Source: a virus. From it: a stretch of 43,970 nt of DNA. Positions 11,686 through 43,366 of the stretch are shown here, piece after piece. A program made the translations under genes and the position numbers. Positions within the stretch are counted from its first letter, which is position 1. Each line of letters begins with the position of its first letter. The stretch spans positions 1 through 43,970 of IMG/VR virus record IMGVR_UViG_3300030117_005432. One strand, written 5' to 3'. The notes beneath the pieces are model-generated. The model was not told where the DNA came from. It worked only from the letters and a program-made list of their open reading frames with translations, and did not search any database.

Positions 11686-11721
11686 AAAAAGGTGAGGGTC
11701 TTCTGTTCCCAAGTGACCCTC
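11686..11721 (-). terminator. Hairpin and T-run after the tmRNA coding piece
   Basis: Stem GAGGGTC (11721-11715) with GACCCTC (11700-11694), 14-base loop, then ACC and TTTTT (11690-11686) and more T. It fits a rho-independent terminator and may also be the last helix of the tmRNA coding piece. Confidence 0.65.
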
Positions 11722-11881: not shown

Positions 11882-11882
11882 A

Positions 11883-11969: not shown

Positions 11970-11976
11970 GTTACCT

Positions 11977-12035
11977 TGGTGGAGATGGCCGGAATCGAAC
12001 CGGCGTCTTAATCGCTATCCATGCATATCCACAGT
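11977..12035 (-). ncRNA. ssrA: Permuted two-piece tmRNA, acceptor piece
   Basis: The 3' end reads CATCTCC-A-CCA (11987-11977), with CCA encoded. The T arm is GCCGG-TTCGATT-CCGGC (12004-11988). Upstream, ACTG (12035-12032), GATA (12029-12026) and TGCATG (12025-12020) can pair with CAGT, TATC and CATGTA of the coding piece to make helix 2. There is no anticodon arm or D arm here, so this is not an ordinary tRNA. The 5' end is approximate. The piece overlaps the last ~20 bases of the nuclease gene. The gene order acceptor-spacer-coding is the permuted order known from alphaproteobacteria and some cyanobacteria. Confidence 0.9.
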
Positions 12036-23247: not shown

Positions 23248-23661
23248 TCAATTTTGTATTAACTTGGGAATAATATGTGTAAGTAACCACGCAATCAAAG
23301 TGGCTGCACCAATTGTAATCCATCTCCAACGATCAAGTGAATCAATCTTTTTCCAAATATCATCAAGGTCACCACTCACTCTCGTTTCTGTTTTGTCTAA
23401 CATGATATTCATTTTATCATGCAAGTCACCAATACGAGAATGAACTATCTTCAATTCATCACGAACTTCATTGTCATTTGCTTTGTGTGATTCTTGTCCT
23501 GCAAGTAAACGACCAATGTTTTCGGATAATGCATTCAGTTTGGATGTCGTGTCATCCAACTTAATCATCAAAGCATCGAGTTCCTTAGAACGATACTCAT
23601 CTTTGATTTTTAATGTCTGAATCTCTGATTTAAGTTGAAGGATAGATTCTTGTTCCGGCAT
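23248..23661 (-). CDS. Tail-anchored coiled-coil membrane protein (XhlA-like architecture)
   Basis: 137 residues. A long coiled coil with many Lys/Glu/Leu heptads (residues ~5-110) ends in RWRWITIGAATLIAWLLTHI, a single C-terminal membrane helix. XhlA-type lysis accessory proteins have the same layout. That is only an architectural match. It is the last gene of the run from 25048, just before the primase promoter. Confidence 0.65.
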   Translation of the reverse strand: MPEQESILQLKSEIQTLKIKDEYRSKELDALMIKLDDTTSKLNALSENIGRLLAGQESHKANDNEVRDELKIVHSRIGDLHDKMNIMLDKTETRVSGDLDDIWKKIDSLDRWRWITIGAATLIAWLLTHIIPKLIQN

Positions 23662-23923
23662 AAGACAATTCTACTGGTTTGACAATCTCCAAAAACTGTT
23701 TACAGTAATGTGCAAACGCCTTTGGAGCAAATGTATTCTCATGCACTGTCCAAGATTCCCCATTTAACTCTGGGTCATGACCATCATTATGTATTTCTAT
23801 TTTATTATCTTCATCATCAACAGCTTTCCAAGTGTTTCTTGACTTAGAAATCCAATCACCAGACATAACTTGGTTGATAGAATCGTCTGACTCTATCTTG
23901 ATATACTCTTTAAATTTCATCAT
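23630..23923 (-). CDS. Small protein with capsid-targeting-like leader, unknown
   Basis: 97 residues, starting MMKFKEYIKIESDDSI, which resembles the M-K-x-F-K-E-Y leaders found downstream. The rest (GDWISKSRNTWKAVDDEDNK) looks like a small beta domain. It overlaps the following coiled-coil gene by 32 bp. No known family; the reading frame is supported by tight spacing on both sides. Confidence 0.6.
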   Translation of the reverse strand: MMKFKEYIKIESDDSINQVMSGDWISKSRNTWKAVDDEDNKIEIHNDGHDPELNGESWTVHENTFAPKAFAHYCKQFLEIVKPVELSYAGTRIYPST

Positions 23924-28929: not shown

Positions 28930-31900
28930 TTAATTTACTCTGACTAATTCAGTTTTTACGAAATTGTGAGAAAGAGTTTTATTCATGTCTTCATCGACAT
29001 AATCTTCTCCACTTGCGGAAAACCATGAACCCATTTTTCGGTCAAAGAAATATGTTTCTCCTTCAAACATATACGGACCTTCTAAATCCTCTTCCATGAA
29101 TTTCGCAAAGTTAGCATCCATGTTTGGTGCTAAGTTATCTAAACGATGAGCGTTATCCCAATCTTGTTCTCCGTACTCAACTCCTTGTTGAGTTACAGCT
29201 TCTTTTACATCATTTTCCTTTTTGTGATAAGAAGCATTCATCTTACCTTTCATCATCATGTGAGATGCTTTGATAGGTTTTCCACCTTTGGAAATAATTC
29301 CGTTCATTCCTTCTTTTTTGACTTGTGCAAGAAACTTCTTAGCATCATCTAAAGTATTAAATTTGCTGACCTTGATTGGACCTTTTTTTGAAGATGCATA
29401 CTTGACCTCAAATTCACCTTTTCCAGAGAACATCTTCCTCTCGTCAATCTCAAATTCTTCGTATGCTGGTTTAATTGCAACAAGTCCTTGTTTTGATTTA
29501 GGAACTTTGAGAAGTTTGTATGCTAATTCTTTTGCAGGGAATATACCATCCGCTTCGTCTTTTCCTTTACCTTTCTTTATCTCTACTTTATTTCCACGAT
29601 ACATTGCAATATATCCAGCTACTGGTTTTTGCTCATCAATATGGTCCATTGCACCACATTCTCCACAATGTTCTAATATTCTGTTACGAAAATCTTTGAG
29701 TGTTCTCATGTTCTCATCCATTTCTGGTTTTAGATTTATTTTGTCCTTTTTCTTGGACTTTTTTGTTTCCAATGGTTCTAATTCTTCACCCATTGCCATT
29801 TTCGTGGCGGTTGCATACATAACCTCTTTTGCTTTATCACCATATCTTTTGACGAACTCAGGCATTTTCTTCTTGAGTTTCATCACGATTTCTTCTCGTT
29901 TCTTCATCTCATTGTCAGTCATCTCTCGTTCAGTAACCAGTTCCTCCTTTTGGTACTTTCTTTCCATTTCAGAGTCACCTAATACTTCACTATTGAATAC
30001 TGATTTTGCAGAAGCAGTTTTCATCATCTTTGCAATCATACGATCTTTTCTTGCTAACTTTTTCATTTTTCTCTCATCATATTTTACTGCTTCTTGGACC
30101 TCTTCTTTAACAAGGTCTTTTGCTGGAACTGCCCTATCATCATAACGACCAAAATTGACCTTCATATCACCATCACCATAATCTTTGATTATTTTACCAG
30201 TTTTACCCATTGCATCTTTGTGACCAAATTTTGTTTCCTTTGATGGATTGTCTTTGATTTTTACCTTATCTCCGACTTTCATTTTTTCAACAATCTCAAC
30301 TTCCTCGTTTGCCATTCTCTTGACTTTGGTCTTGAGATACTGAAGTGTTCTCTTTGCAACTTCATCAGCAGTTTTACCTTCAAACTCTTTTCGCTGAAAC
30401 CAATCTACTCTGTCTGACTTTCTGTCTTTTGCAGTTGCAGCTTCGTTGATGTAAACAATCATCTCAAACTTACGATAAGTTTTTGTATCAACGCCAGGTT
30501 CTGAGAATTTTGGGTCTGCACCAATCTTTCCAAGGCCTGGGTCAAACATTCTCTCACGATATTCAATCATCAACTTGGGTGCAGAATCGCCAGGAAATGT
30601 GATTCCCATTCCAGGCACCTTTGTCTTAGGAATCATATAGTTTGATATTCTAACACCTGAAATCATCTTCTGTAAACCACTTGCAAGTGATCTTGGAAAC
30701 TTATTAATATTTTTTACAATGTTGTAATCGGGCATACTATATTCACCAGATTTACCACCACCTTTCACATACCTTCGTTTTGCATCACCCTTATCAAGTT
30801 CTCTTTGTTTCTGCATTGCTCTTTGAAAGGTCTTCTTGAAACCTTTCATTTGTTTCTCACCTTCTCTACCAGTTCCAGGCTCGATCTTGGTAATCTTACC
30901 ACCACCTTTCATAAACCTATCAATTGCAGCTTGATTGGGAGAGGGCGCTTCTGTAAGTTCAACTTCCTCTCTCATTTTGTCAAGATGTTTTTTGATTCTC
31001 TTTGACTGACCAAGATGTTTCTTTGATGCACCTTCTAATTCTTTTGCAATCTTCTCCAAGTCCTCATCTTCTTTTACACTCTCGATATACATATTGAGTT
31101 CAAATCTTTTGTTGTCAAGATTTGCTACTTGAACATGAAGGTTCTGTTTCTTGTCTGTTCCGAGAATGTAACGATTGGTTTTTCCTGAAGATGGTTTTCT
31201 TGGACCAGATGCAACCTTGTTGTCAATGTCATTCTTATCAACTGTGTATCCTCTTTTCTTTGCAACTGCATATGCGTGCTGCATTGCACCTGAGAATGTC
31301 TTATGATACAGTTCATAATCAGAATGTTTTTTCTCATCAAGTTCAGTTTCTTCATTCATTTTATTCAATTTTGCAACCTTTACTGCTGCTTGTTTTGTAT
31401 TGGATAAAACTTCATCTGCATTTGGAAATCCAGCTCTCATTTCTTTTTGTCTATCGTGCATCTTTCCAATAATTTTACCATTGTTATCTTTTTGCAATCT
31501 ATAGACACCCCTATCAAGATTATAATAATGGTATTTCTTATCTTCATCAAGTTCAGTATCTTCCTTCATCGTCTTCTTGATGTAATTGTCGATAGAAGGT
31601 GAAAGTCCTTTGAACGCAAGAAGAATCTCATCTCCAACAATTCCTGCCATCATTGAGAGAACTTTGTCTCTTGGGTCAGTGTCACTTGGGATATCGCTCT
31701 TGTCTGGTAACATTCCCTTCTTTGCGATTGCTGCAACTTTCATAAAATCGTCTTTATCAATTCCACCACTCTTCTTTGCATACTTCTCTAACTCAACTCC
31801 AAACTTCTTGACATTCTTGAAAAGTTCTGGTGTTAGACGAATACCTTTATGCATTTTTTCTTCTATTTCTTTTTTCTTTGGTGGAAAAGGTGATTGGTCG

Positions 31901-32511
31901 TGTCTAGGATCTTGTTGTTGTTTCTCTTGCTCAGTTTGTTCAATACCCAATCTCTTTCTTAGAGCAGCTCGTCTTGCAATATTATCTCTCTTCGCTTCCG
32001 CTCCAGATAATTTTTTTCTTCCATCTTCTTTATCTTTGAAGATTTCTCTGCCTTTAATGATTGCTCTTCCCTCATCTGCACCATCCTTGAAAGTTCCTTT
32101 TACGAACTTCGTATACTGGTCAAAGTCAAGTCCTGCTTTCTTTGCACGTTTTGCAAAATCAGTCAATACCTTATCGGGAAAAGGAATTAGATTTGAATAG
32201 TCCCTTCTACGTTCATCTAAACCTTCAATCTCTTCTGCCATTTCCTTCATTGCTTTGGAAATCGCTTTTCTTCTCTTATGAAGATACTTATCTGAACTAT
32301 CTACATCTCCATCATTGTCGATATCTTTGTCTTTGCGGTCCTTAAACTTCTTTTTGACTGCATCTTTGTTCACAGGGTCAAGAGCTTCGTCTGTCTGCCC
32401 AGGAGTCATTTCTTTATATTCTTGAGTTAATTCGTCTGTTCCTTCTTCTTTGGGTTTTCTTGTTTGTTTCAACCCTTCTCTAATGGAACGAATAAAAGCG
32501 GTATCAATCAT
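28930..32511 (-). CDS. Giant modular Lys/Glu-rich protein, candidate processed internal head polyprotein
   Basis: 1193 residues with no single known family. Modules are separated by acidic linkers that carry L/I-x-E sites: GLDE (98-100), ELDE (321-323, 391-393), LTE|A (519-521), INE|A (688-690), IVE (740-742), VQE|A (805-807), LVTE and EIDE further on. T4 gp21 protease cuts at L/I-x-E. An EF-hand-like loop DIDNDGDVDSSD spans 63-74, a KOW/SH3-like module follows MKVGDKVKIKDN (~744-800), and C-terminal FDRKMGSWFSASGEDYVDED ends it. A role as packaged, cleaved polyprotein is inferred, not shown. Start overlaps a small leader ORF by ATGA. Confidence 0.75.
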   Translation of the reverse strand: MIDTAFIRSIREGLKQTRKPKEEGTDELTQEYKEMTPGQTDEALDPVNKDAVKKKFKDRKDKDIDNDGDVDSSDKYLHKRRKAISKAMKEMAEEIEGLDERRRDYSNLIPFPDKVLTDFAKRAKKAGLDFDQYTKFVKGTFKDGADEGRAIIKGREIFKDKEDGRKKLSGAEAKRDNIARRAALRKRLGIEQTEQEKQQQDPRHDQSPFPPKKKEIEEKMHKGIRLTPELFKNVKKFGVELEKYAKKSGGIDKDDFMKVAAIAKKGMLPDKSDIPSDTDPRDKVLSMMAGIVGDEILLAFKGLSPSIDNYIKKTMKEDTELDEDKKYHYYNLDRGVYRLQKDNNGKIIGKMHDRQKEMRAGFPNADEVLSNTKQAAVKVAKLNKMNEETELDEKKHSDYELYHKTFSGAMQHAYAVAKKRGYTVDKNDIDNKVASGPRKPSSGKTNRYILGTDKKQNLHVQVANLDNKRFELNMYIESVKEDEDLEKIAKELEGASKKHLGQSKRIKKHLDKMREEVELTEAPSPNQAAIDRFMKGGGKITKIEPGTGREGEKQMKGFKKTFQRAMQKQRELDKGDAKRRYVKGGGKSGEYSMPDYNIVKNINKFPRSLASGLQKMISGVRISNYMIPKTKVPGMGITFPGDSAPKLMIEYRERMFDPGLGKIGADPKFSEPGVDTKTYRKFEMIVYINEAATAKDRKSDRVDWFQRKEFEGKTADEVAKRTLQYLKTKVKRMANEEVEIVEKMKVGDKVKIKDNPSKETKFGHKDAMGKTGKIIKDYGDGDMKVNFGRYDDRAVPAKDLVKEEVQEAVKYDERKMKKLARKDRMIAKMMKTASAKSVFNSEVLGDSEMERKYQKEELVTEREMTDNEMKKREEIVMKLKKKMPEFVKRYGDKAKEVMYATATKMAMGEELEPLETKKSKKKDKINLKPEMDENMRTLKDFRNRILEHCGECGAMDHIDEQKPVAGYIAMYRGNKVEIKKGKGKDEADGIFPAKELAYKLLKVPKSKQGLVAIKPAYEEFEIDERKMFSGKGEFEVKYASSKKGPIKVSKFNTLDDAKKFLAQVKKEGMNGIISKGGKPIKASHMMMKGKMNASYHKKENDVKEAVTQQGVEYGEQDWDNAHRLDNLAPNMDANFAKFMEEDLEGPYMFEGETYFFDRKMGSWFSASGEDYVDEDMNKTLSHNFVKTELVRVN

Positions 32512-32624
32512 TTTGAATCCTTATACCTTTTGGTAAGCCTCTTGAGTTGTTCTTTTCTGCGCTGTAAATCACGATTTTCTCTATCGTCAATGCGCTCGTC
32601 TATGTATTGTTGAAAAGTTTTCAT
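32508..32624 (-). CDS. 38-residue protein with capsid-targeting-like leader
   Basis: ATG at 32624, TGA at 32510-32508, overlapping the giant gene by ATGA. It starts MKTFQQYIDERIDDR, close to the T4 leader MKTYQEFIAEA, and the rest is a charged helix. A TATAAATA box lies 6 bases upstream. It may be a tiny internal protein or a coupling leader peptide. Confidence 0.6.
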   Translation of the reverse strand: MKTFQQYIDERIDDRENRDLQRRKEQLKRLTKRYKDSK

Positions 32625-32629
32625 ATTAA

Positions 32630-32637
32630 TATTTATA
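32630..32637 (-). promoter_or_regulatory. T4-late-like promoter box
   Basis: Minus strand TATAAATA, the T4 late consensus, 5 bases before the ATG at 32624. A start site in the usual place would leave that gene leaderless, but would serve the giant gene downstream. AT-rich chance match is possible. Confidence 0.35.
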
Positions 32638-32639
32638 AA

Positions 32640-33152
32640 TTATCTATACCCAATTTTGCGTAATTCTCTGATGGTATTCGCAGCAGATGTATGAACAATA
32701 CCCAATCCACCTGCTTTCCTGAATGCATCAATGTTTTTTGCATGATCATCTATCAGTAGATTGGGTCTTCCGTCTTTACCATCCTTTGCAAAGTTTGCTT
32801 TGTTTTTACGCATAACTGCATAAATCCTTGCATCATTTACACCAAAATGTTTCTTCATCCATCGTTTCTTATCCTCCGCTGCACGTTCTGATATTGGTCC
32901 TCTTCCACCTCTAGGAATAGCAGTCAGGATATTTGGATTGTATCTTCCAATAAACCTCCATAATTGTTTTGCATCAGGCATTGGTGGGAGTTGATAAAAC
33001 ATATCTGGTGGTAATTCGTGCCAATTTTCATCGGTAAACTTCTGTCCCAGATGTTCTCTGGTAAATTTGACGAAATCAGCAAGAACACCATCCATATCAC
33101 AATAAATGGTTGGTGAATCAAACTCTACCAGATAATCTCTAAACTTTTTCAT
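32640..33152 (-). CDS. HAD-family phosphatase with capsid-targeting-like leader
   Basis: 170 residues. Leader MKKFRDYLVE, then the HAD motif I IYCDMDGVLADF (D19 nucleophile, D21), motif II ILTAIPR, and motif IV NLLIDDHAKNIDAF. It resembles 5'-nucleotidase-like HAD enzymes of phages. The substrate is probably a nucleotide, but unproven. The leader suggests it may be packaged. Overlaps the broken gene upstream by ATGA. Confidence 0.8.
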   Translation of the reverse strand: MKKFRDYLVEFDSPTIYCDMDGVLADFVKFTREHLGQKFTDENWHELPPDMFYQLPPMPDAKQLWRFIGRYNPNILTAIPRGGRGPISERAAEDKKRWMKKHFGVNDARIYAVMRKNKANFAKDGKDGRPNLLIDDHAKNIDAFRKAGGLGIVHTSAANTIRELRKIGYR

Positions 33153-33412
33153 TTTTTCTTTTTCTTTGGTTTTGGACTATGACCATGACTTTCCATCTTA
33201 GTCACTTTAACTTTTGATGCTTCAAGGGTAATTTGTTGTCCGTTATGAATTACATAGTACTCTTCTATTGTACCATCTTCATCGAGACTATGACTCTCTA
33301 CTTTAACTTCTCCCAAACTTGGGTGATAGATATGAGTCGCTCAATCGTGTTTTATTGCTCTATCGACATTTATTTTGTTTAGATCGTTTTTTAGTTCTTT
33401 TAATGTTTTCAT
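33149..33412 (-). pseudogene. Small gene split by an in-frame TGA
   Basis: An ATG at 33412 opens MKTLKELKNDLNKINVDRA and stops at TGA (33343-33341) after 23 codons. The same frame then continues without break for ~63 codons (HIYHPSLGEVKVESHS, LDEDGTIEEYYVIHNGQQIT) to a TGA at 33151-33149. Both outer ends overlap neighbours by ATGA, as whole genes here do. There is no start or ribosome site for the second part. So it is one gene with a nonsense codon: mutation, sequence error or read-through. The downstream part resembles small marine phage proteins that track capsid leaders. Confidence 0.65.
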
Positions 33413-33909
33413 GACTCCCTTGTGATGGAATAAACTTTCTCTATCTGTTTTTCTAATATAGGTGTTCGATTTGGCCAGTAAATGTACTCTTTGTCTGGAT
33501 TCTTCATCAACCCTTTTAGCATTGGAATCACTAATGTTTCCAATTCCTTTAACCTGCTTGCAAACTTATCATCAAGTTCACCTTTGCGTTCCTCAACTTC
33601 GTCAATGACTGCACGAATTGAACTACCCTGTTCACTTAATGCGCTTGCAATCTGAGTTGACTCAATCTCTAAAATCTTGTCAACCTTTTCTTCTAAACGA
33701 GAAATCTTTTCTCCTGTCTCATCAAATAAACTTGTATCTTCTTTGTCTCCAAGTGCTTGTATCAAACTTGAGATTGAGTCCATTTTCTTTTTAAGTTCGT
33801 CAAACTCATCAGACGAAACTGCTGATGGTTGAACTTCTGTTGTTGTTTGGGTCTTTTGGAACTCTTCAGTTGATACTGCACTAAACCCAAAATCAAAATC
33901 ATCTGCCAT
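33409..33909 (-). CDS. Conserved coiled-coil phage protein
   Basis: 166 residues. A Thr/Ser-rich acidic N-terminus (MADDFDFGFSAVSTEEFQKT), a central coiled coil (ISRLEEKVDKILEIE) and a conserved-looking end MKNPDKEYIYWPNRTPILEK. The YIYWPNR block recurs in marine T4-like phages. Probably structural; role unknown. Confidence 0.75.
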   Translation of the reverse strand: MADDFDFGFSAVSTEEFQKTQTTTEVQPSAVSSDEFDELKKKMDSISSLIQALGDKEDTSLFDETGEKISRLEEKVDKILEIESTQIASALSEQGSSIRAVIDEVEERKGELDDKFASRLKELETLVIPMLKGLMKNPDKEYIYWPNRTPILEKQIEKVYSITRES

Positions 33910-33913
33910 ATTA

Positions 33914-34372
33914 TTATACCTTTAACTTTTGATTACTTGTCTTAAAATCTTTTTTTCTCATCACTGTTTTCGCCACCATATCCAACATACCATCACGATC
34001 ACGCTGAAGTACAAAAGGCATATTAACATCAGTTTCCATGTCATGTATTACCGCCTGTGCATCTGGACCCATTTTTGGAATCTTCTTACCATGTTTTTTA
34101 TACGTGAGCCTAAAAAGACGTATAAGTTCTGCCGTATTAATTGGTTTCTTGTTTCGCTCATCATTAACCCTATCCAGAAAATGACGAGTAAACTCAACAT
34201 CAATACCAACAGCAGCGAATAATTTGTCTGCATATCTTTCTATCTGGTCAAGGTCTGAACGAGAAACATCTTCTGAGATTTTTCGTATTTCCAATTCTTT
34301 TGCGAACAATATGTCGCCCCATTCTTCTTCCGTGAATGATTCTGTCTCTATGTAATCCTTGAACTTTTTCAT
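33914..34372 (-). CDS. Conserved phage protein with capsid-targeting-like leader
   Basis: 152 residues. Leader MKKFKDYIETES. The body has a conserved-looking core: YADKLFAAVGIDVEFTRHFL, DRVNDERNKKPINTAELIRL, GPDAQAVIHDMETDVNMPFV, AKTVMRKKDFKTSNQ. Similar proteins are frequent in marine T4-like phages and have no assigned role. The start overlaps the previous gene by ATGA. Confidence 0.78.
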   Translation of the reverse strand: MKKFKDYIETESFTEEEWGDILFAKELEIRKISEDVSRSDLDQIERYADKLFAAVGIDVEFTRHFLDRVNDERNKKPINTAELIRLFRLTYKKHGKKIPKMGPDAQAVIHDMETDVNMPFVLQRDRDGMLDMVAKTVMRKKDFKTSNQKLKV

Positions 34373-34692
34373 TTCTTGTTTCTTTTCTTTGTAATTTCTT
34401 TCATCTTATTAATGTATGCACGATACACCGCTGCAGCACCTTTCTTTCCCATCACTCTTGCTCGTTGTTCCATTGCAATTGCAGCCTGTATTTTGTGTGC
34501 GTGTTTCTTTCCACTATTCTCAATCTTTCTCACACTTGCTTCTGCATCTTTGACAGTTGCAAACTTTAGACCATGTATCGTTCCCTTTGGATTTTCATCT
34601 GTGTAAAGGTCAGAGTGTTTGTCACTACCAGCTGGTTGTCCCTTCTTTCTGGGAATCCTTGGTGCCTCTGAAAATTGTTTAAACGTTTGCAA
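34369..34692 (-). CDS. Small basic phage protein with leader MQTFKQFSE|A
   Basis: 107 residues. After the leader comes PRIPRKKGQPAGSDKHSDLY, TDENPKGTIHGLKFATVKDA and a basic helical region HAHKIQAAIAMEQRARVMGK. This is a widespread phage domain of unknown function, often in capsid-associated small proteins. F-S-E|A fits a gp21-type cut. Net charge is strongly positive, suiting DNA binding inside the head. Confidence 0.75.
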   Translation of the reverse strand: MQTFKQFSEAPRIPRKKGQPAGSDKHSDLYTDENPKGTIHGLKFATVKDAEASVRKIENSGKKHAHKIQAAIAMEQRARVMGKKGAAAVYRAYINKMKEITKKRNKK

Positions 34693-35110
34693 CCGAATCT
34701 CCTACCTTGCCCGTCTTATTTGCAATCGATACATGAAACACTCTCTTCGGGTCTGGGTTCGATTGTAACAAATCTGTAACATAATCCTTGAGTTGTCTTT
34801 GTTGTTTGACTTTCATATACCAAGAAACCTTACCAGATGATTCTATCTTTTTTGGTTCTTCAAACTCTAATTGAAAATTTGGATCATCAAACTCTACATC
34901 TTTGAATTTGGAACTTATCTTTTTCCACCCAGCTCCTCCTGCAAGTGTAACGTGTAACTTGTCATCTCCTATCGGTTTCATATCGGGATTCTTTTTAATC
35001 AACTTATGTCTGACTGATCTAATATACTTGACTTCTCTAGGACTAGGATAATATTTTAAAATACTTTCTACCTCTACCTGTTCCTTTAAAAAATTTTTAA
35101 AACCTAACAC
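34679..35110 (-). CDS. 2H phosphoesterase-like protein with capsid-targeting-like leader
   Basis: 143 residues from a GTG at 35110 (GAGGTG 7 bases upstream). After MLGFKNFLKEQVEVES come two H-x-T/S motifs: LHVTLAGG (H53, T55) and FHVSIANKTG (H126, S128), spaced as in 2H phosphoesterases (2'-5' ligase-like). Phage members of this superfamily include the T4 anti-CBASS nuclease Acb1 (152 aa), but also RNA-processing enzymes. Which one applies is not decidable here. The leader suggests injection with DNA. Confidence 0.7.
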   Translation of the reverse strand: MLGFKNFLKEQVEVESILKYYPSPREVKYIRSVRHKLIKKNPDMKPIGDDKLHVTLAGGAGWKKISSKFKDVEFDDPNFQLEFEEPKKIESSGKVSWYMKVKQQRQLKDYVTDLLQSNPDPKRVFHVSIANKTGKVGDSVANV

Positions 35111-35394
35111 TACTGTCCACCTCTAACTTCGGTCAAATATTTGTGATCCACATCTGATATAAACTCTTTGATGTATCCTTGTAACTCAGTCGCTTCTTCG
35201 TCATCTTTTATTTGATTGATTTTACCCTTAATTGACATTAAACTGTTTTCTATTCTTTTGCACTCTTCATACGTTATCATTACTTGTGACTCCAAGTCCA
35301 CATGACAAGCAAATAATTCATCCTCTTTTCTCTCTGCCTTACTTGAACACCAGTAAGTGTAGAAACAAGAGTTAACCCATCGTGAATAACTCAT
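35110..35394 (-). CDS. Small acidic helical protein, unknown
   Basis: 94 residues. Starts MSYSRWVNSCFYTYWCSSKA, followed by charged helices (ECKRIENSLMSIKGKINQIK). Four cysteines, three near the start. Shares its stop with the next start. No leader of the capsid type and no family known. Confidence 0.7.
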   Translation of the reverse strand: MSYSRWVNSCFYTYWCSSKAERKEDELFACHVDLESQVMITYEECKRIENSLMSIKGKINQIKDDEEATELQGYIKEFISDVDHKYLTEVRGGQ

Positions 35395-35669
35395 TTAGCA
35401 TTCCTTAGTTTAATTTTGTTTACAAGTTCATCTGTTAATCTCATCTGCTCGAGTTTCCTCGCAATCCTAGCAGATTTTGAATTTTCCTCCCTACTTTTTT
35501 CTTTTGCGGCTGCATTTTCATATTCTTTCCACAAAACATCACTATGTTTTCTATACAAATCGTCTTCATGTTCCCATTCTATTTTCAGTATTCTTCTCAA
35601 ATCCTCATAAGCATAATATTCAATCAAGACCTCATGCGCTGGTCTGTATTTCTCGTATACTGTTTCCAT
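35391..35669 (-). CDS. Small charged helical protein, unknown
   Basis: 92 residues. A helical domain (YEKYRPAHEVLIEYYAYEDL) and a Lys/Glu-rich tail. ATGA overlap with the next gene; begins 7 bases after the gene at 35676. Unknown function. Confidence 0.7.
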   Translation of the reverse strand: METVYEKYRPAHEVLIEYYAYEDLRRILKIEWEHEDDLYRKHSDVLWKEYENAAAKEKSREENSKSARIARKLEQMRLTDELVNKIKLRNAK

Positions 35670-35675
35670 GTGTTA

Positions 35676-35852
35676 TCATGCAGGACCACCATACTTTTTT
35701 GATTTGATTTTTTTACCTTTGTATTCTCCACCTGTCCTTGCAACCTTTCCTTTAGCTTTACAAGATGCTTTGCAAGAAAAACCTTTTGGGTTTTTGCAGT
35801 CACAATGACTCATGTCCTTTTCTTCAAGATAATACTCAACAAATCGTTTCAT
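35676..35852 (-). CDS. 58-residue Cys/Lys-rich protein with capsid-targeting-like leader
   Basis: ATG at 35852, TGA at 35678-35676; ATGA overlap with the gene upstream. Leader MKRFVEYYLEEK, then SHCDCKNPKGFSCKASCKAK with five cysteines, and a basic tail RTGGEYKGKKIKSKKYGG. The Cys/Lys pattern suggests a metal-binding, DNA-binding internal protein. No family known. Confidence 0.68.
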   Translation of the reverse strand: MKRFVEYYLEEKDMSHCDCKNPKGFSCKASCKAKGKVARTGGEYKGKKIKSKKYGGPA

Positions 35853-36370
35853 TTATAATACTCATTCTTCGGGTCTGCATCACCTGACTCATCTGGCCAC
35901 CATTCCAATTCATACTTATCACCATCTGCAAACATTTTTCTCATTCCAAGAATACGTTTCTCATACTCTTTCTTGGATGGTTTGACTCTCTCCGCAACGA
36001 CATCAAGGACATAGTTGAGAGTTGTAGCGTTTGCAGTAATTGAACCACACCTTGCACCAACTTCACCTTTGAGAAAATCTATAAGTATACTTCCACTTGA
36101 ATCTGCAAGAGGTTTTGCAAACTTCTCAGGAACTTGTAAGTCGATGTAACAATAGATGAAATCATAATGTGGCGCTGGTGAACCATGTAAAATATATTCG
36201 TCCTTCACCACTATTCTCTTGAACCCATCCTTCGCAAACCAACACAACTGACTATTTGTCATCTCATCTGGTTTTCCAAATGTTTTTTCCAGATGTTTTG
36301 AATATTCAACTGGTTCTTCGTTTTCCCAATTGTTATATGACTCTGTAATAAAGGACTTGAATGTTTTCAT
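35849..36370 (-). CDS. Phage protein with leader MKTFKSFITE|S
   Basis: 173 residues. The leader is a near match to T4 MKTYQEFIAE. The body is a mixed alpha/beta domain (SQLCWFAKDGFKRIVVKDEY, APHYDFIYCYIDLQVPEKFA), acidic at the end. No family recognised. ATGA overlaps on both sides place it in the same translational chain. Confidence 0.75.
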   Translation of the reverse strand: MKTFKSFITESYNNWENEEPVEYSKHLEKTFGKPDEMTNSQLCWFAKDGFKRIVVKDEYILHGSPAPHYDFIYCYIDLQVPEKFAKPLADSSGSILIDFLKGEVGARCGSITANATTLNYVLDVVAERVKPSKKEYEKRILGMRKMFADGDKYELEWWPDESGDADPKNEYYK

Positions 36371-36669
36371 AACTTACCCTTTCCAAAGTTAGAGACATTA
36401 ATTGGTTTACCTTTTCTGTCTGGATCTTTATCATATTTTCTTTTTGCACGAACCGCAGCTGCACGTTGTTTTTTTGTGAGTTGTCTTATCTTGCGATTAG
36501 ACATACACTTGGGTTTCGGTCCATCTGGATCACCATCACCATCTTTGTCTGGTCTTGCACACGGACCCAAAACAGAACCATCTGTTCCTATTCGTTTCCA
36601 CCCACCTTGAGGGTCTTTCTTATCAAACCACTTTCGTAGGTCTTCAGAAAACTCTCTAAATCGTTTCAC
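36367..36669 (-). CDS. Small basic Cys-containing protein with leader MKRFREFSE
   Basis: 100 residues from a GTG at 36669, chosen since GGAGG lies 5 bases upstream and it restores the leader. The body WKRIGTDGSVLGPCARPDKD, then KPKCMSNRKIRQLTKKQRAA and KRKYDKDPDRKGK is a common small phage domain of unknown function, very basic. GTGA overlap with the upstream gene. Confidence 0.75.
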   Translation of the reverse strand: MKRFREFSEDLRKWFDKKDPQGGWKRIGTDGSVLGPCARPDKDGDGDPDGPKPKCMSNRKIRQLTKKQRAAAVRAKRKYDKDPDRKGKPINVSNFGKGKL

Positions 36670-36839
36670 TCTGACCTCCAAGTTCCACCTTTGGACTTGT
36701 ACCATTTTGCTGCCCATCCGTTTGCATAAGCTGACGGATAAACATCAAACTTCTGTTTTGCAAGTGATTTTGCTCTCGACCAAAGTTTGGGATTGTTTGG
36801 AACATTCTTCTCTGTTATAAACTCTTTAAAATTTTTCAT
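36666..36839 (-). CDS. 57-residue protein with leader MKNFKEFITE
   Basis: Starts at the ATG at 36839, sharing TAATG with the gene upstream. After the leader: PKLWSRAKSLAKQKFDVYPS, AYANGWAAKWYKSKGGTWR. This FDVYPSAYAN...GGxWR domain is widespread in phages and giant viruses as small unknown proteins. It is basic and probably DNA- or protein-binding within the virion. Confidence 0.75.
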   Translation of the reverse strand: MKNFKEFITEKNVPNNPKLWSRAKSLAKQKFDVYPSAYANGWAAKWYKSKGGTWRSE

Positions 36840-37180
36840 TAGTTGTCCACCTTTGCTGATGCTCTCCATTGAAAACAACTCCAATACCTTGCTTTGTATT
36901 TGGGGCCTGGGTCTGAGCAGTTATGTCTTGCACGAAATGACTTTCTCCTTGCAGGGTCATCTCGTTTGATTTCCATATTTGGATCTCCAAAATTTACTTT
37001 GACTACATTACCTTTTTCATTTTTTACGTAAACTGAAAATTTCTTTGGACCTTTAGGAGTACGAAAAGGGTTGTTGAGTTCGACTTTTCTTCCTTGGTAT
37101 TCCGCTTCAGTAATCACATGGTCAAACTGTTCATCACATTCATCACAACATTTTTCAGAAAACTCTTTGAAGGATTTCAT
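36839..37180 (-). CDS. Cys-containing phage protein with leader MKSFKEFSE
   Basis: 113 residues from the ATG at 37180 (GGAGAG upstream, ATGA overlap). After the leader, CCDECDE, then FRTPKGPKKFSVYVKNEKGN and VVKVNFGDPNMEIKRDDPAR, RKSFRARHNCSDPGPKYKAR. The FGDPNMEIKRDDPxRRxSFRARHxC block is common in T4-like marine phages. Six or more cysteines suggest zinc binding. Confidence 0.78.
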   Translation of the reverse strand: MKSFKEFSEKCCDECDEQFDHVITEAEYQGRKVELNNPFRTPKGPKKFSVYVKNEKGNVVKVNFGDPNMEIKRDDPARRKSFRARHNCSDPGPKYKARYWSCFQWRASAKVDN

Positions 37181-37368
37181 TTTTTGACTCTCCAAATGTC
37201 ATTGATACATTGTACTTTATCATAAACTTGCAAGTGTTGTAACATTGAATTTACTGGTGTAACATCTTCTCCAAGTTTGTGAGAAAGTGCAAGTAAGTCA
37301 CTTGGTTTCTTTTTAAGGGTTGATAATACTTTTTCCTCAAAAGAGGAATATTCATTAAACTTTTTCAT
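37177..37368 (-). CDS. Small winged-helix-like protein with leader MKKFNEYSS
   Basis: 63 residues. The body EEKVLSTLKKKPSDLLALSH, KLGEDVTPVNSMLQHLQVYD, KVQCINDIWRVKK looks like a winged helix (three helices then a beta wing). A DNA-binding role is possible. The leader is a weaker match with no L/I-x-E. Overlaps the upstream gene by 14 bp. Confidence 0.65.
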   Translation of the reverse strand: MKKFNEYSSFEEKVLSTLKKKPSDLLALSHKLGEDVTPVNSMLQHLQVYDKVQCINDIWRVKK

Positions 37369-37540
37369 CTGTGTCTTTCGTTTTTCTAACTGGCCAATTG
37401 GTGCAGTATGGGTGCTTTGGGTCGTGTTGTTTTATCATAGTAACTCCAACATACTCTTCTCTCCCGACTGGTTCATCCCACTCATCACCGCACACATCAA
37501 CTCCATGATCTACTTGAGGGAGCGGACTCTTATAAGCCAA
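37355..37540 (-). CDS. Small protein, TTG start, unknown
   Basis: 61 residues from a TTG at 37540 with AAAGGAG about 7 bases upstream. Product MAYKSPLPQVDHGVDVCGDE, then WDEPVGREEYVGVTMIKQHD and HPYCTNWPV; two cysteines and several His/Asp could bind metal. It overlaps both the 34-residue frame upstream and the next gene. The start is uncertain. Confidence 0.5.
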   Translation of the reverse strand: MAYKSPLPQVDHGVDVCGDEWDEPVGREEYVGVTMIKQHDPKHPYCTNWPVRKTKDTDEKV

Positions 37541-37614
37541 CCTTTTTCTCCTTTAGAAGTGTTATAAGTATAAATTGTTTCGAGTTCAAAGTCCTTGTTT
37601 TTCTTTGTAGTCAT
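37510..37614 (-). CDS. 34-residue ORF overlapping the iscU end
   Basis: ATG at 37614 within the last iscU codons, TAG at 37512-37510. Product MTTKKNKDFELETIYTYNTS, then KGEKGWLIRVRSLK. It reads like protein but has no good ribosome site and overlaps another candidate in a different frame by 31 bp. One of the two may be spurious. Confidence 0.3.
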   Translation of the reverse strand: MTTKKNKDFELETIYTYNTSKGEKGWLIRVRSLK

Positions 37615-37972
37615 TTATTGCTGCCTTAATTGCATCCTCTGCAAGAACCGAACAATGGATCTTGACAGGTGGAAGTGAAAGTTCTTCCACGATTTCTGTA
37701 TTCGATAACTCCATTGCTTCATTAACAGTTCTGCCCCTAACCCACTCAGTAGCAAGGGAACTAGCAGCAATAGCACTACCACACCCAAAGGTCTTAAACT
37801 TAGCGTCTTCGATAATTCCTGTTTCATCATCTACCTTTATTTGAAGTTTCATTACATCACCACATTCAGGCGCTCCAACAAGACCAGTACCAACGCTATC
37901 GTCAGCGGAATCAAGAGAACCCACATTCCTTGGTTTTTCATAGTGTTCTATTACCTTATCTGAATAAGCCAT
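37586..37972 (-). CDS. iscU: IscU-type iron-sulfur cluster scaffold
   Basis: 128 residues, normal IscU length. All key features are kept: GAPECGDVMKLQI (C37, D39), TFGCGSAIAASSLATEWVRG (C64), LPPVKIHCSVLAEDA (LPPVK chaperone site, C107). It should assemble [2Fe-2S] clusters with host IscS and pass them on through host HscA/HscB. In the phage context it may support Fe-S enzymes in the infected cell. Shares TAATG with the upstream small gene. Confidence 0.93.
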   Translation of the reverse strand: MAYSDKVIEHYEKPRNVGSLDSADDSVGTGLVGAPECGDVMKLQIKVDDETGIIEDAKFKTFGCGSAIAASSLATEWVRGRTVNEAMELSNTEIVEELSLPPVKIHCSVLAEDAIKAAINDYKEKQGL

Positions 37973-38151
37973 TATTTCTTTTTTTCTAATGTTTCATAAA
38001 TTGGATCAGTCGTATGATGTTCTGTACTTTTTAAAAGTGCTCTTGATGATGCAAGACGATCAAGGTTTTCGGGTGTTTGTGGAAATTCAATTACTTTTCC
38101 ATTTTCAACACCCGACATAATTTTTAATCTCTTCTTAATCCACTCAATCAT
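37972..38151 (-). CDS. 59-residue protein, unknown
   Basis: ATG at 38151, overlapping the nuclease end by 8 bp; stop shared with the iscU start (TAATG). Product starts MIEWIKKRLKIMSGVENGKV and continues IEFPQTPENLDRLASSRALL. An internal ATG at residue 12 is an alternative start. No family known. Its tight junctions on both sides support translation. Confidence 0.6.
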   Translation of the reverse strand: MIEWIKKRLKIMSGVENGKVIEFPQTPENLDRLASSRALLKSTEHHTTDPIYETLEKKK

Positions 38152-38659
38152 TATCCCATTCTAATAATTCTTGTTCACCTGTCCCTGCAAGATACTCACG
38201 ATTCTTCCAATGCTCACCTTTAACATCATCTTTGTTTTGACCCCAATAACCAACTGCATGACCATGTTCACACATCCATTGGTTTAAGTTTGTCCACCCT
38301 TCGTACTCATGACCCTCTTCGCCACAATGCACCCAGAGTTCTCCAAGAATTCTACCAAACTTACCTCTTGAGTCAGCTTCAGGACATCGAAGTTCGATCT
38401 CCACATCATCCCTGTCTGAATCAATTGCCCAGTGGACCCATTTCTTTAGATTCTTTTTACTGAGAAGACCATAGACCTTCTCGTTCTTATGTCGTGTTCT
38501 GGACTCTGGTGTATCAATACCTAACAACCTTACACGACTTTTGAACATAACATCAAACCCCAAATCAAAGACACAATCAACTGTGTCACCATCGACAATT
38601 TTTGTTACTGCTTCTATTCTATAAACGAAAGGACAGTCCTCTTGTTTATACTCAGCCAT
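38144..38659 (-). CDS. Thermonuclease (SNase-like)
   Basis: 171 residues. Staphylococcal nuclease fold: KIVDGDTVDCVFDLGFDVMF, RVRLLGIDTPESRTR (catalytic Arg and Glu), KFGRILGELWV (second catalytic Arg), and NQWMCEHGHAVGYWG. No signal peptide is present, so it should act in the cytosol or be packaged. Such genes are common in marine phages. GGGGGG/TATT leads the ATG at 38659. Confidence 0.85.
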   Translation of the reverse strand: MAEYKQEDCPFVYRIEAVTKIVDGDTVDCVFDLGFDVMFKSRVRLLGIDTPESRTRHKNEKVYGLLSKKNLKKWVHWAIDSDRDDVEIELRCPEADSRGKFGRILGELWVHCGEEGHEYEGWTNLNQWMCEHGHAVGYWGQNKDDVKGEHWKNREYLAGTGEQELLEWDND

Positions 38660-38677
38660 AATACCCCCCTTTATTTG

Positions 38678-38788
38678 TTACACAGCTGCAACTAAATCTT
38701 CATCACATCCGCATAGATTTTCTGTTGTACACTCACATGGATCGCAAGTGCAGTTTGAACATTCACAACATTTATCGTTTTCTTCCAT
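38678..38788 (-). CDS. 36-residue Cys-rich metallothionein-like peptide
   Basis: ATG at 38788, TAA at 38680-38678. Nine cysteines in residues 7-28: KCCECSNCTCDPCECTTENL, then CGCDEDLVAAV. The CxCxxC and CxxCxC spacing is of the metallothionein type, so it may bind zinc, copper or iron. It lies between the nucleotidyltransferase gene and the nuclease/iscU run. The ribosome site is modest (AAGGAC at -10). Confidence 0.6.
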   Translation of the reverse strand: MEENDKCCECSNCTCDPCECTTENLCGCDEDLVAAV

Positions 38789-38789
38789 C

Positions 38790-39800
38790 TTAGTCCTTCT
38801 TCTTATTCATCGCTCGTCTTCGTTCAACATCTTGTTTTCGTTTATCCTTAACAAGACGTTTTGCAAATCTTGCGATTACCTTTGATTTCTTTTTTACAAT
38901 ATCAGAAATCTTACCACGTTCTGCATAAGAGAGTTCTGAACGAGATTTCTTTTTCAGTTTTGGAAAAAACCTTTTGACAATCATATTGATTGCTGCTTTT
39001 CTTGCACGACTATCGAGTTTACCTTTTGTAGCGGCTTTCTTCAATGCAATCTGTCTTTTACGAATGAAACCAGGCTTTCTTGCTTGCAACTTCATCCTCA
39101 ATGCCATCTTTCTTCGTTGTGCAGGAGTAAGTGCTTCATAAAGTTCTAAATCAAAATCTTCATATTCATCCATCTCTTCTTTTACACCACTCACACCCAT
39201 ACCCTTTGCAACTGCATCGTAGAGTTTCTTGCAATCTTTTTCTGATACACTTGCAGGAATTCCCATCTTGAAAACATCGTAGTTTCCATCTGCAACTGCC
39301 GCTCTCATCTTGGATGCAGACATTCCTTCTACACCTTCAGCATCTGGATCTCTTTCTCCAGCAGAAACCACTTTGATTTCGTCAAACTGATAAAATCCGT
39401 GTTTGACATCTTCACCATTGTATCGGTTCAGGAGAGTATTAAAATCTGCAACTCTGTCACTTCCAACCACCATAACAACTCTTGAATATTTTTTCATGTC
39501 ATGTAACTGAACAAGTGCTTCAAGTGCATTTCGTGCTTTTGACTTAATCATTGCAGAACGATGTTTTGGAAACATAAGTTTCATAAACATCATCTTTTGA
39601 TCATGACTCAAAGGGTTTTTCTTTTTATCTTGTGAATGACTCATGAATACATAGTAATCACCTCTTTGTTTAGAGGCGGTATTCATCAACACTTTGAGAA
39701 GTTTTTCATGGCCGGTTGTTGGGGGGTTGAACCTGCCAAACGTGAATACCGCCGTTCCTCCCTTTTGTTCTTTTAAAAATTGATCGTAAGTTTTACTCAT
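38790..39800 (-). CDS. Nucleotidyltransferase (cytidylyltransferase-like) fused to a basic C-terminal domain, with leader
   Basis: 336 residues from the ATG at 39800 (ATGA overlap). After MSKTYDQFLKE, a leader very like T4 MKTYQEFIAE, comes VFTFGRFNPPTTGHEKLL with the G-x-F-x-P-x3-GH nucleotide-binding motif and GMSASKMRAAV. The fold includes NMN adenylyltransferases and phosphopantetheine adenylyltransferases. From ~223 it is very basic (ALTPAQRRKMALRMKLQARK). The linker ELYE|A (E222) fits a gp21-type cut, so it may be split into enzyme and DNA-binding tail. Confidence 0.82.
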   Translation of the reverse strand: MSKTYDQFLKEQKGGTAVFTFGRFNPPTTGHEKLLKVLMNTASKQRGDYYVFMSHSQDKKKNPLSHDQKMMFMKLMFPKHRSAMIKSKARNALEALVQLHDMKKYSRVVMVVGSDRVADFNTLLNRYNGEDVKHGFYQFDEIKVVSAGERDPDAEGVEGMSASKMRAAVADGNYDVFKMGIPASVSEKDCKKLYDAVAKGMGVSGVKEEMDEYEDFDLELYEALTPAQRRKMALRMKLQARKPGFIRKRQIALKKAATKGKLDSRARKAAINMIVKRFFPKLKKKSRSELSYAERGKISDIVKKKSKVIARFAKRLVKDKRKQDVERRRAMNKKKD

Positions 39801-41020
39801 TTTGTCCAATTCTTTGCAGCATTAAAGTTTGCTCTTGAAAACTCAAGGCGGTCAACCAGTTTGACAGCATCACCCATTCGGTCAATTGCAACAAAACCCT
39901 CTGGTGCAGTCACACGATATCCATTGTCTGTGCGTATGAAAGTATCCATTGCACCTCTTGCTTTTTCAAGTTTGCGTATCACCATATTCTTGGCGTCCAC
40001 CAACAAGTTCTGCATATCAAAGATGTTCTTGAAATTGACTCTGTTCTTAGTGATGTAAGAAATCAACTCGTTCTTGTTTTTTGTTTTGATCTCTCTGTTC
40101 TTTTCTGTCTTTATCTTATCAATGTCTTTCTGCAACTTAGCATTGATATACTTTATCATCTCTCCTGTGTGTTTCGTTGTGTTTGAAATCTTCTGTCCTT
40201 CTCTGACCTTGACGTTGTTGAATGTTTTTACCAAGATGAGAAGATTGTTATCATTCATCAGTTCATTCATAAATGATGATTTCAGTTCACGAAACTTTTT
40301 ACCAGCAGAGGATAGAACCTTTGTGATTGATGCAGTTTCCGCTTTGTTAAAATTCACTGTTCCAGAAGTGTCTCTGTAATCTGCATCTGTAAAATATACA
40401 TCGTCCGTTTTTCTCAACCCACTTATATTCGCACCGAAAGTGGCACGCATATCTTCAAGTTTTTCTCCTGAGTAAGTGGTATGCCAGACAATACCCATTT
40501 TCGCTTTTTTAATCTTACTAGAACTTTCTTTTGGAACTGCGTATACGATTGTGTTGGGCTGGAAGGTGAGATACGATTTACCATCTATTGTCTCCGTTGA
40601 CAAATCATCTTGTGTGAATAACATATCACCTTGGAGAACATCTTTAATTCCTAACTTTGGTAGATACTTGAGTGCAGCTTTGAGTTTTGAATTAAGACCT
40701 GGCGATGAATGATTTGCATCAATGTCTGCATTTGTATAGTTGACTTTTGGATTCTTATTAAAAACTCCCTTGGTTCCTACAAAAAATCTTTTGTTCTCTG
40801 GATTAATTCCTGCAAAAATAGCAGGAGCTCCATCCCATTTGACAGTCACGTTTACACTTGACTTTGTACTTCCTGCAAGCATATCCCTCAAAGATTGAAG
40901 GAAATTGATTGCTGCCCGTGTTCCGTTGACTCCGTTATTCAACACCTCATCTTCAAGGTGCTCTAAATGTAAGTTCTTGCCCTCTGCGCCTTCAGCAAGA
41001 TACTCTGCGAATGTAATCAT
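39797..41020 (-). CDS. Ligase-like KxDG nucleotidyltransferase with capsid-targeting-like leader
   Basis: 407 residues. Leader MITFAEYLAE|G. Body VNVTVKWDGAPAIFAGINPE has K61-W-D-G like the adenylation motif of DNA/RNA ligases (K-x-D-G). Further parts (RFFVGTKGVFNKNP, IKDVLQGDMLFTQDDL, TIVYAVPKESS) fit motif III-V positions loosely. Related marine phage proteins carry no named function. A TATAAATA box lies upstream (41064-41071). Confidence 0.75.
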   Translation of the reverse strand: MITFAEYLAEGAEGKNLHLEHLEDEVLNNGVNGTRAAINFLQSLRDMLAGSTKSSVNVTVKWDGAPAIFAGINPENKRFFVGTKGVFNKNPKVNYTNADIDANHSSPGLNSKLKAALKYLPKLGIKDVLQGDMLFTQDDLSTETIDGKSYLTFQPNTIVYAVPKESSSKIKKAKMGIVWHTTYSGEKLEDMRATFGANISGLRKTDDVYFTDADYRDTSGTVNFNKAETASITKVLSSAGKKFRELKSSFMNELMNDNNLLILVKTFNNVKVREGQKISNTTKHTGEMIKYINAKLQKDIDKIKTEKNREIKTKNKNELISYITKNRVNFKNIFDMQNLLVDAKNMVIRKLEKARGAMDTFIRTDNGYRVTAPEGFVAIDRMGDAVKLVDRLEFSRANFNAAKNWTK

Positions 41021-41063: not shown

Positions 41064-41071
41064 TATTTATA
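41064..41071 (-). promoter_or_regulatory. T4-late-like promoter box upstream of the ligase-like gene
   Basis: Minus strand TATAAATA, exact T4 late consensus, 44-51 bases before the ATG at 41020. Spacing suits a short leader. Confidence 0.45.
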
Positions 41072-42139: not shown

Positions 42140-43366
42140 TTAAGCGGGAACCACCTCCGCTTTTGGTTTTACGTAACCCCTGACCATTTTGATTTCGTCT
42201 TGAGTTACAAATTCACCATGACCAATAGTATATGCGGCATGACCAAACTCTGCAAGGTCAATACCTTGTGTTTCTTCTTCAACTGAAACTCGCAACCCCA
42301 TTACCATTTTTATGATAAACCAAACTATCAAACTGGAAGCAAATACAAACCCCCCGATAATTCCTATACCATAAAGTTGAGTAACTATGGATGCATCCTC
42401 TTTGAAGATACCTACTGCCAGTGTTCCCCAAATTCCAGCGACAAGATGGACTGATAGAGCTCCAACTGGATCATCAATCTTTACTTTATCAAAAAGTGGA
42501 ATTGCAAGGACTGCTAGACCAGAACCAATTACTCCAATAAGAATTGACAACGCTATTGTTGGATAATCTGGACCTGCTGTAATTGACACAAGTCCTGCAA
42601 GTGCTCCGTTTAACACTAACGTTAGGTCTACTCTTTTATATAGTAATTGTGTGATAATCATGGCAGTTACCGCTCCTGCAGCCGCAGCCATGTTTGTGTT
42701 CAAGATTACACTTGCGATTGCATTGACATCATCTTTGGTTCCCATTGCAAGTTGTGACCCACCATTGAATCCAAACCAACCAAACCAAAGTATGAAAGTT
42801 CCCAAAGTTGCAAGTGGTAAATTTGAAGGTGCAATAAGATTTACTTTTCCATCTTCAGAATACTTACCTGTTCTTGCACCTAAGAGTATGACTCCTGCAA
42901 GTGCTGCCCATCCTCCAACGGAATGAACAATTGTTGAACCAGCAAAATCAGAGAATCCCATCTCAGATAGAAATCCTCCACCCCAAGTCCATGCACCTTG
43001 TAATGGATATATCACACTAGCAAGCACAAGGACGAAAACCATGAATGACCAAAATTTCATTCGTTCGGCAATTGTTCCCGAAATAATACTTGCAGCTGTT
43101 GCGACAAATACTACTTGGAAAAAGAAATCTGACATACCAGAATGATCTCCGTCTGAGATACTTCCATACATCAGTTGATAACCTACTACAAAGAAGGCTA
43201 GACAGGATAAGGAATACAAACAAATATTCTTTGTCAGAATAGCAGTTGTATTTTTTGTTCTTACCATTCCTGCTTCTAACATTGAAAAGCCTGCCGCCAT
43301 CAACATCACCAGCACACCGCTGAAAAGAAGTAGAAAGGTGTTCAAAATATACTGAATATCATTCAT
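42140..43366 (-). CDS. amt: Ammonium transporter AmtB-type
   Basis: 408 residues with about eleven membrane helices. Amt signatures: FAGSTIVHSVGGWAALAGVI, FGWFGFNGGSQL and VGALSVHLVAGIWGTLAVGI. H148 and H307 correspond to the twin histidines of the conducting pore. The C-terminal GIDLAEFGHAAY is the conserved cytoplasmic tail that binds GlnK. It would raise ammonium uptake in the infected cell. No glnK is nearby. Its ribosome site AAAGGAGA can be masked by an upstream inverted repeat. Confidence 0.93.
   Translation of the reverse strand: MNDIQYILNTFLLLFSGVLVMLMAAGFSMLEAGMVRTKNTTAILTKNICLYSLSCLAFFVVGYQLMYGSISDGDHSGMSDFFFQVVFVATAASIISGTIAERMKFWSFMVFVLVLASVIYPLQGAWTWGGGFLSEMGFSDFAGSTIVHSVGGWAALAGVILLGARTGKYSEDGKVNLIAPSNLPLATLGTFILWFGWFGFNGGSQLAMGTKDDVNAIASVILNTNMAAAAGAVTAMIITQLLYKRVDLTLVLNGALAGLVSITAGPDYPTIALSILIGVIGSGLAVLAIPLFDKVKIDDPVGALSVHLVAGIWGTLAVGIFKEDASIVTQLYGIGIIGGFVFASSLIVWFIIKMVMGLRVSVEEETQGIDLAEFGHAAYTIGHGEFVTQDEIKMVRGYVKPKAEVVPA

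Follow-up and report, generated by a model that had tools for sequence, protein, structure and literature searches.

In phage T4, the internal proteins IPI, IPII and IPIII and the Alt protein carry a leader of about ten residues, with aromatic residues at positions 4 and 7 and an L/I-x-E end, in front of basic bodies that are unrelated to each other. Genetic analysis assigned head targeting to residues 4 and 7 and processing to residues 8 and 10, and the prohead protease gp21 cuts after L/I-x-E (PMC9026906). In the T4 record, IPII and IPIII start with MKTYQEFIAE-A and IPI with MKTFKEFTS...TITE-A. IPI acts against GmrSD, and a similar role has been proposed for IPIII (PMC9391042). Here we analyzed a 43,970-base record of an uncultivated virus (IMG/VR record IMGVR_UViG_3300030117_005432; the whole stretch is called the window below), in which 14 open reading frames (ORFs) start with a leader like that of the T4 proteins, and in which one long ORF resembles a polyprotein of such cargo. 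T4 has a handful of tagged proteins, whereas these 14 lie in a single 44-kb fragment. The cargo of the window also differs from that of T4 in including several recognizable enzymes and in having modules that occur in polyprotein form as well.

Two other systems were compared. In the giant phages phiKZ, 201phi2-1 and SPN3US, many head proteins are cut after Glu by gp21-like proteases and some are ejected into the host. Their propeptides are mostly long and differ at P3 (A-x-E in SPN3US; PMC5694885), unlike the leaders of the window; they have no short common tag and, in the sections consulted, no multi-module cargo chains. Polyvalent proteins have several domains and are believed to travel with the DNA of phages or plasmids. 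Iyer et al. (2017, PMC5512222), who do not use the word 'cyanophage', likened them to polyproteins, sometimes released by proteolysis. They rely on embedded peptidases, whereas the joints in the window carry the motif of a prohead protease, and a Pfam search found no peptidase family in the long ORF of 1193 amino acids (aa).

The window covers part of the genome of a marine T4-like phage, whose nearest isolate, judged by the DUF6267 gene, was Methylophilales phage Melnitz-3 (50% identity), and a near-identity DNA search against named phages gave just one 81-nt match. The leader ORFs, 13 in 32508-41020 and one at 23630-23920, are all on the minus strand (Table 1). They start with ATG, GTG or TTG at the leader Met, and many neighbors overlap by 4 nt. 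The leader has the form M-x-x-[F/Y]-x-x-[F/Y]-(L/I)-x-E or a close variant of it. A broad motif was found at 14 of the 63 gene N-termini and at 82 of 11,623 internal positions (0.44 expected at N-termini, binomial p=2e-17), and a stricter hydrophobic-x-E form at 7 of the 63 (0.21 expected, p=2e-9); these p-values are somewhat flattering because the motif was written after the leaders had been seen, although the gap far exceeds that bias.

A preliminary description of this DNA had reported about fourteen proteins that start alike, with a likeness to T4 MKTYQEFIAE-A and with unrelated bodies. All leaders that it listed were present, the likeness agreed with the T4 record of IPII and IPIII, including the aromatic residues at 4 and 7, and the bodies belonged to different families, with a best pairwise E of about 0.05. 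Some starts needed correction: the cytidylyltransferase starts with MSKTYDQFLKE at 39800, the ORF at 23630-23920 has an extra Met at 23923, and the start codon is GTG for 36367-36669 and 34679-35110 and TTG for 34369-34692. The bodies after the leader were mostly basic, with a median isoelectric point of 9.6 compared with 5.7 for the other ORFs (p=4e-4).

The leader was also sought on further genes of related genomes, a check proposed in that description, and 253 distinct ORFs in 40 clusters were found, a few of them chance matches. In 30 leader-bearing DUF6267 homologs from IMG/VR, E10 was invariant, F4 and L8 were conserved to 90% or more, and the rest of the leader varied. Among 81 distinct decapeptides from relatives, selected by a pattern that fixes positions 4, 7, 8 and 10, the free positions gave M-K-[KTN]-F-[KS]-x-[YF]-[LI]-T-E overall. 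A gp21-type prohead protease is encoded by Melnitz-3, the closest isolate, and by S-SZBM1 and S-CREM2. The likely cut sites of gp23 in Melnitz, S-SZBM1 and S-CREM2 (FLSE-A, ILTE-A and LLTE-A) and the likely N-terminal cut sites of gp21 itself (YITE-A, IITE-G and LLTE-E) had the same form as the ends of the leaders. As a separate observation on T4, gene 57B (L340:13953-14411), which adjoins ipI and is annotated as an RNA ligase, starts with MMEFKDFS, like the targeting half of the capsid-targeting sequence, and has HxT-type motifs; its product could be an unrecognized T4 head protein.

The preliminary description had also proposed looking for these proteins in virions, and published mass spectrometry (MS) did detect leader proteins in the virions of related phages. 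The virion of S-CREM2 contained 52 proteins, six of them non-structural (PMC10665884, Table 3). We translated all 219 coding sequences of S-CREM2 and scanned them for the leader. With a strict pattern, picked after the result of a broader one had been seen, five of the six leader proteins were in the virion list, compared with 47 of the 213 other coding sequences (Fisher p=0.003); with the broader pattern the enrichment was weaker (6 of 10 matches, p=0.013). The five proteins were gp6 (SAM hydrolase, MKDFDSFLEE), gp13 (MKDLHSFLTE), gp14 (kinase, MKRFDAFLTE), gp136 (MQTFSMFFSE) and gp154 (cytidylyltransferase, MKNFSSFLTE-A). Three of these leader proteins, the kinase, the SAM hydrolase and the cytidylyltransferase, are enzymes that the S-CREM2 authors could not place. 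Virion enzymes of the same cytidylyltransferase/NMNAT family, from the same operon region as in the window, start with MKKFSAFLNE-A in S-SM1 (PMC3037559), MRFRQFIIE-A in S-SZBM1 (PMC9146016) and MKSFLQFLKE-A in S-SCSM1 (PMC9602691), and no leader is mentioned in the available text of the papers on these three phages and S-CREM2. The virion kinase of S-CRM01, as cited in PMC10665884, starts with MISFDQFLSE-K. S-SCSM1 gp280, annotated as a virion protein, contains an LDPVGKEDADVDNDG module shared with the 1193-aa ORF and an EEVELDE linker. We also noticed that S-CREM2 gp12 (L326:7704-10313), a virion protein annotated as Cas9/Csn1, has LRFASFMAE-A near its start; its start codon was possibly mis-called, and instead of a Cas9 it may be a protein of the HNH type.

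Bodies that are leader-borne in the window recurred inside long ORFs elsewhere, with hydrophobic-x-E just before them. The fused module NVPTNPxLW was preceded by IEE, LDE, VNE, LME and LIE, DLRKWF by ISE, INE, LSE and FEE, and SDLDQIE by ITE, ILE and IQE. In a junction test with 17 modules and 94 distinct internal contexts, L/I/V/M/F-x-E was found at most 12 residues upstream in 74 of the 94 contexts, compared with 20.4 in shuffles (maximum 36 in 2000 shuffles) and with 4 of 94 at a control site within the module. In 14-residue windows, L/I-x-E itself was enriched about fivefold (56 of 94, 12.2 expected, z=13.9), and V/M/F-x-E was enriched as well (z=6.8). The enrichment of L/I-x-E held for modules without leader-defined limits (32 of 57, 7.0 expected).

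The 1193-aa ORF of the window is built in the same way. Examples of its linkers are EEVELTE-A, ETELDE-K, EVEIVE-K and FEIDE-R, and its modules occurred in other orders elsewhere. When it was compared with three relatives, all nine insertions or deletions of at least 60 aa (69-126 aa) began or ended at or near linkers, and a 120-aa segment between EEVEIVE and EELVTE was missing from all three. The cytidylyltransferase of Melnitz is a 650-aa chain. In the window, this enzyme has a basic C-terminal domain after LELYE-ALTPAQRRK, and Melnitz gene 17 encodes a stand-alone basic domain with a leader-like start that resembles the domain following LYE-A. These sequences suggest that the long modular ORFs are polyproteins of injected proteins processed by the head protease. 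The view of the leader as a shared tag in the preliminary description was supported; that description missed this larger point, that the same modules stand in polyprotein-like ORFs with L/I-x-E.

We consider it highly probable that the shared N-terminus is a T4-type capsid-targeting propeptide, and that the chains of the same phages are cut at gp21-type L/I-x-E joints. As the head assembles, aromatic residues 4 and 7 would draw each tagged protein into the core of the scaffold. Cleavage by gp21 after (L/I)-x-E, near position 10, would follow, and the mature, mostly basic body would remain in the head and be injected into the host along with the DNA. Long ORFs such as that of 1193 aa would be packaged as one polypeptide and cut by gp21 into many small proteins, and modules would move between the stand-alone format with a leader and the fused format. 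We lean mildly towards the further proposal that marine T4-like phages encode true polyproteins, in which one packaged chain is cut at L/I-x-E and injected, and in which the joints are breakpoints for shuffling, gain or loss, and conversion to stand-alone genes.

Several points weigh against this interpretation. Some leaders in the window end in F-S-E or lack L/I-x-E at position 10: MKKFNEYSSFEE (37177-37368) and MKKFKDYIETE (33914-34372) have no clean L/I-x-E there, and in MKRFVEYYLEE the L-x-E is shifted one residue downstream. The window, as a fragment, does not contain gp20-gp23. S-CREM2 gp175, a leader protein, was undetected in virions, and S-SZBM1_191 and S-SZBM1_192, which have clear leaders, are missing from the list of 30 virion proteins of S-SZBM1. 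The MS data were obtained on other phages, using CsCl preparations, in which contaminants are possible by the authors' own caveat; the authors of the S-CREM2 (PMC10665884) and S-SCSM1 (PMC9602691) papers left packaging or contamination open. Module boundaries in the junction test were set by eye, and its 94 contexts were drawn from related viruses. Cleavage of the leaders and of the fused ORFs is predicted from motifs, and injection of the proteins is inferred.

The reliance on motifs for cleavage, and the leaders that lack L/I-x-E, would suit an uncleaved peptide that docks to the scaffold or another partner, with the E-rich joints being flexible linkers. Targeting without processing is possible in T4 when residue 10 is Asp (PMC9026906). 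We regard this explanation as unlikely, since E10 and L8 were kept while other leader positions varied. At the joints, L/I-x-D was not enriched (4 found, 8.4 expected), other spacings were far weaker, and in the same 94 contexts there was no enrichment with K, Q, A, S or N at P1 or of A/G-x-E, S/T-x-E, K/R-x-E or P-x-E. The enrichment was thus specific to E and absent for D, so a plain acidic linker would not explain the joints.

The leader might instead be a feature of translation or expression without any role in packaging, reflecting AT-rich, lysine-rich starts of overlapping genes. These genes do overlap, Lys is common at position 2, and K-rich gene starts are frequent in phages. The third positions of the leader codons vary, however, so the leader is conserved at the protein level, and an RNA- or codon-level explanation was rejected on that ground. 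Aromatic residues at 4 and 7 and Glu at 10 have no translational reason, adjoining genes such as those at 35110-35394, 35391-35669 and 37586-37972 have no leader, and leader proteins were enriched in a virion proteome; this explanation is very improbable. We give as little credence to an assembly tag shared by tail or baseplate proteins: in relatives the genes do cluster near others annotated as S-layer-like, tail-fiber-like or structural, but the tag matches the T4 head-targeting sequence and gp21 site, and the cargo comprises nucleotidyltransferase, nucleotidase, kinase and nuclease families. Recent tandem duplication, with the genes as diverged copies of one gene, was rejected as the source of the leader and is the least plausible, because the bodies are dissimilar and of different families and single bodies swap the leader for fusion contexts across viruses, even though the genes are clustered in one operon.

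The leader behaved as an add-on to its cargo. In the cytidylyltransferase, the DUF6267 protein and the nucleotidase, the domains recognized by Pfam or PHROG begin after it. In relatives of the 2H-like protein (34679-35110) with 80-98% identity, the body was kept from Q11 onward while the leader varied (MLGFKNFLKE, MLRFKQYIAE or MKSFKKYIAE). This protein has invariant H53xT and H126xS, a match to Pfam 2_5_RNA_ligase2 below the cut-off, and an AlphaFold2 model that was unusable (predicted local distance difference test score, pLDDT, 38). In one relative (L337:1774-3408), the 2H-like body is joined behind MTE-Q to a leader-bearing CCA/poly(A) polymerase, and this fusion suggests a theme of RNA repair. 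DUF6267 has invariant KWDG (61-64), EG (374-375) and K387, which can be compared with the KxDG and EG/K motifs of the covalent nucleotidyltransferase/ligase superfamily. Its sequence had no match among solved structures. In Foldseek, its AlphaFold2 model (pLDDT 76) matched ligases and capping enzymes weakly, the best hit being DNA ligase IV (E=0.46, prob 0.41). With these motifs and matches, a divergent polynucleotide ligase is a possible identity. Not every DUF6267 protein is tagged, since the leader is missing from the homologs of S-SZBM1, S-CRM01 and S-SM1 (for S-SZBM1 the upstream in-frame reading was checked). The leaderless S-SZBM1_141 is not in the virion list of that phage, which fits and proves little.

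Leader-marked families in relatives included nucleotidase, nucleotidyltransferase, adenylate kinase, CCA/poly(A) polymerase, nuclease, methyltransferase and DnaJ, and further SAM hydrolase and kinase. Together with the enzymes of the window (HAD nucleotidase, NMNAT/cytidylyltransferase, possible 2H phosphoesterase and possible ligase-like DUF6267), this cargo fits early repair of nucleotides or nucleic acids and counter-defense, and its most likely role would be early counter-defense, nucleic-acid repair and host take-over. A PADLOC search gave no convincing defense or counter-defense family. Among the leader proteins of relatives, we also noticed one of 864 aa (L033:18450-21041). Its start (GRMNPPTTGHE) is similar to the nucleotidyltransferase motif, and the protein further contains a DLRNWF module and a kinase domain of the zeta-toxin-like type (Pfam PF06414, E=8e-12).

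Table 1. Leader ORFs, the polyprotein-like ORF and late promoter matches in the window.
Feature	Position	Strand	Leader	Remarks
DUF6267 protein, 407 aa	39797..41020 (leader 40991-41020)	-	MITFAEYLAE-G	Pfam PF19782, E=2.6e-120, from residue 16
Cytidylyltransferase/NMNAT-like, 336 aa	38790..39800	-	MSKTYDQFLKE-Q	Pfam PF01467 from residue 20
63-aa protein	37177..37368	-	leader-like MKKFNEYSSFEE	cf. T4 IPI MKTFKEFTS
113-aa protein	36839..37180	-	MKSFKEFSE-K	body EYQGRKV also fused within large ORFs
57-aa basic protein	36666..36839	-	MKNFKEFITE-K	body NVPNNPKLW also found fused
100-aa basic protein	36367..36669	-	MKRFREFSE-D	GTG start; body DLRKWF also found fused
173-aa acidic protein	35849..36370	-	MKTFKSFITE-S	
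58-aa basic Cys-rich protein	35676..35852	-	MKRFVEYYLEE-K	
2H phosphoesterase-like, 143 aa	34679..35110	-	MLGFKNFLKE-Q	GTG start; invariant HxT, HxS
107-aa basic protein	34369..34692	-	MQTFKQFSE-A	TTG start; body RIPRKKGQPAGSDKH also fused elsewhere
152-aa protein	33914..34372	-	MKKFKDYIETE-S	second site RKISE-DVSRSDLDQ, ISE-D at residue 34
HAD-type 5'-deoxyribonucleotidase, 170 aa	32640..33152	-	MKKFRDYLVE-F	Pfam NT5C, E=3e-8; PHROG 2643, E=3e-28, from residue 13
38-aa basic peptide	32508..32624	-	MKTFQQYIDE-R	4-nt overlap with start of 1193-aa ORF
1193-aa polyprotein-like ORF	28930..32511	-		small basic modules with EExELxE linkers between them
96-aa protein	23630..23920	-	MKFKEYIKIE-S	extra Met at 23923
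TATAAATA, T4-type late promoter match	41064..41071	-		upstream of DUF6267 gene; suggestive only
TATAAATA, late promoter match	32630..32637	-		just upstream of 38-aa leader ORF and 1193-aa ORF; suggestive only

The body of the 152-aa protein was fused or leader-borne in relatives, the 38-aa peptide was kept in three relatives, and no homolog of the 96-aa protein was found among the relatives examined. The two late promoter matches are the only ones in the window and both lie just upstream of leader genes, with a core no commoner than chance; the match upstream of DUF6267 was present in 3 of 25 relatives. Other genes of this region were also noted. An ammonium transporter gene (42140-43366; Pfam PF00909, E=2.6e-99), likely an auxiliary metabolic gene, adjoins the leader operon. 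Within the operon, a NifU/IscU N-terminal domain protein (37586-37972; PF01592, E=4e-54) and a small protein with the thermonuclease-like signature VDGDTVDC...GIDTPESRT (38144-38659) have no leader. A transfer-messenger RNA with the tag ANNADYTSASEYYAIAA was predicted at 11647-12069, and one is annotated in Melnitz-3 too.

In the open-access literature, we found no paper on a capsid-targeting leader in cyanophages or in pelagi- or methylophages, none on prohead-protease polyproteins of cargo or on such wide use of the tag among proteins of Kyanoviridae-like phages, and no link of the leader to orphan virion enzymes; these negatives are not proof of novelty. The polyprotein format and the scale of tagging appear new, while tagging of this kind was already known from T4.

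For most genes of T4-like phages in the ocean, no role is known. Because at least thirteen unrelated proteins bear a T4-type label and chains of cargo in relatives carry the cutting motif, it is probable that a large and swappable toolkit is injected by these phages together with their DNA. If this is true, a simple sequence rule, aromatic residues at 4 and 7 followed by L/I-x-E, would flag head cargo that is injected on arrival, and would give an immediate list of candidate counter-defense and take-over proteins. It would also account for virion-associated enzymes that are puzzling finds in the published proteomes of four cyanophages, and the head protease would work like the protease of a viral polyprotein.

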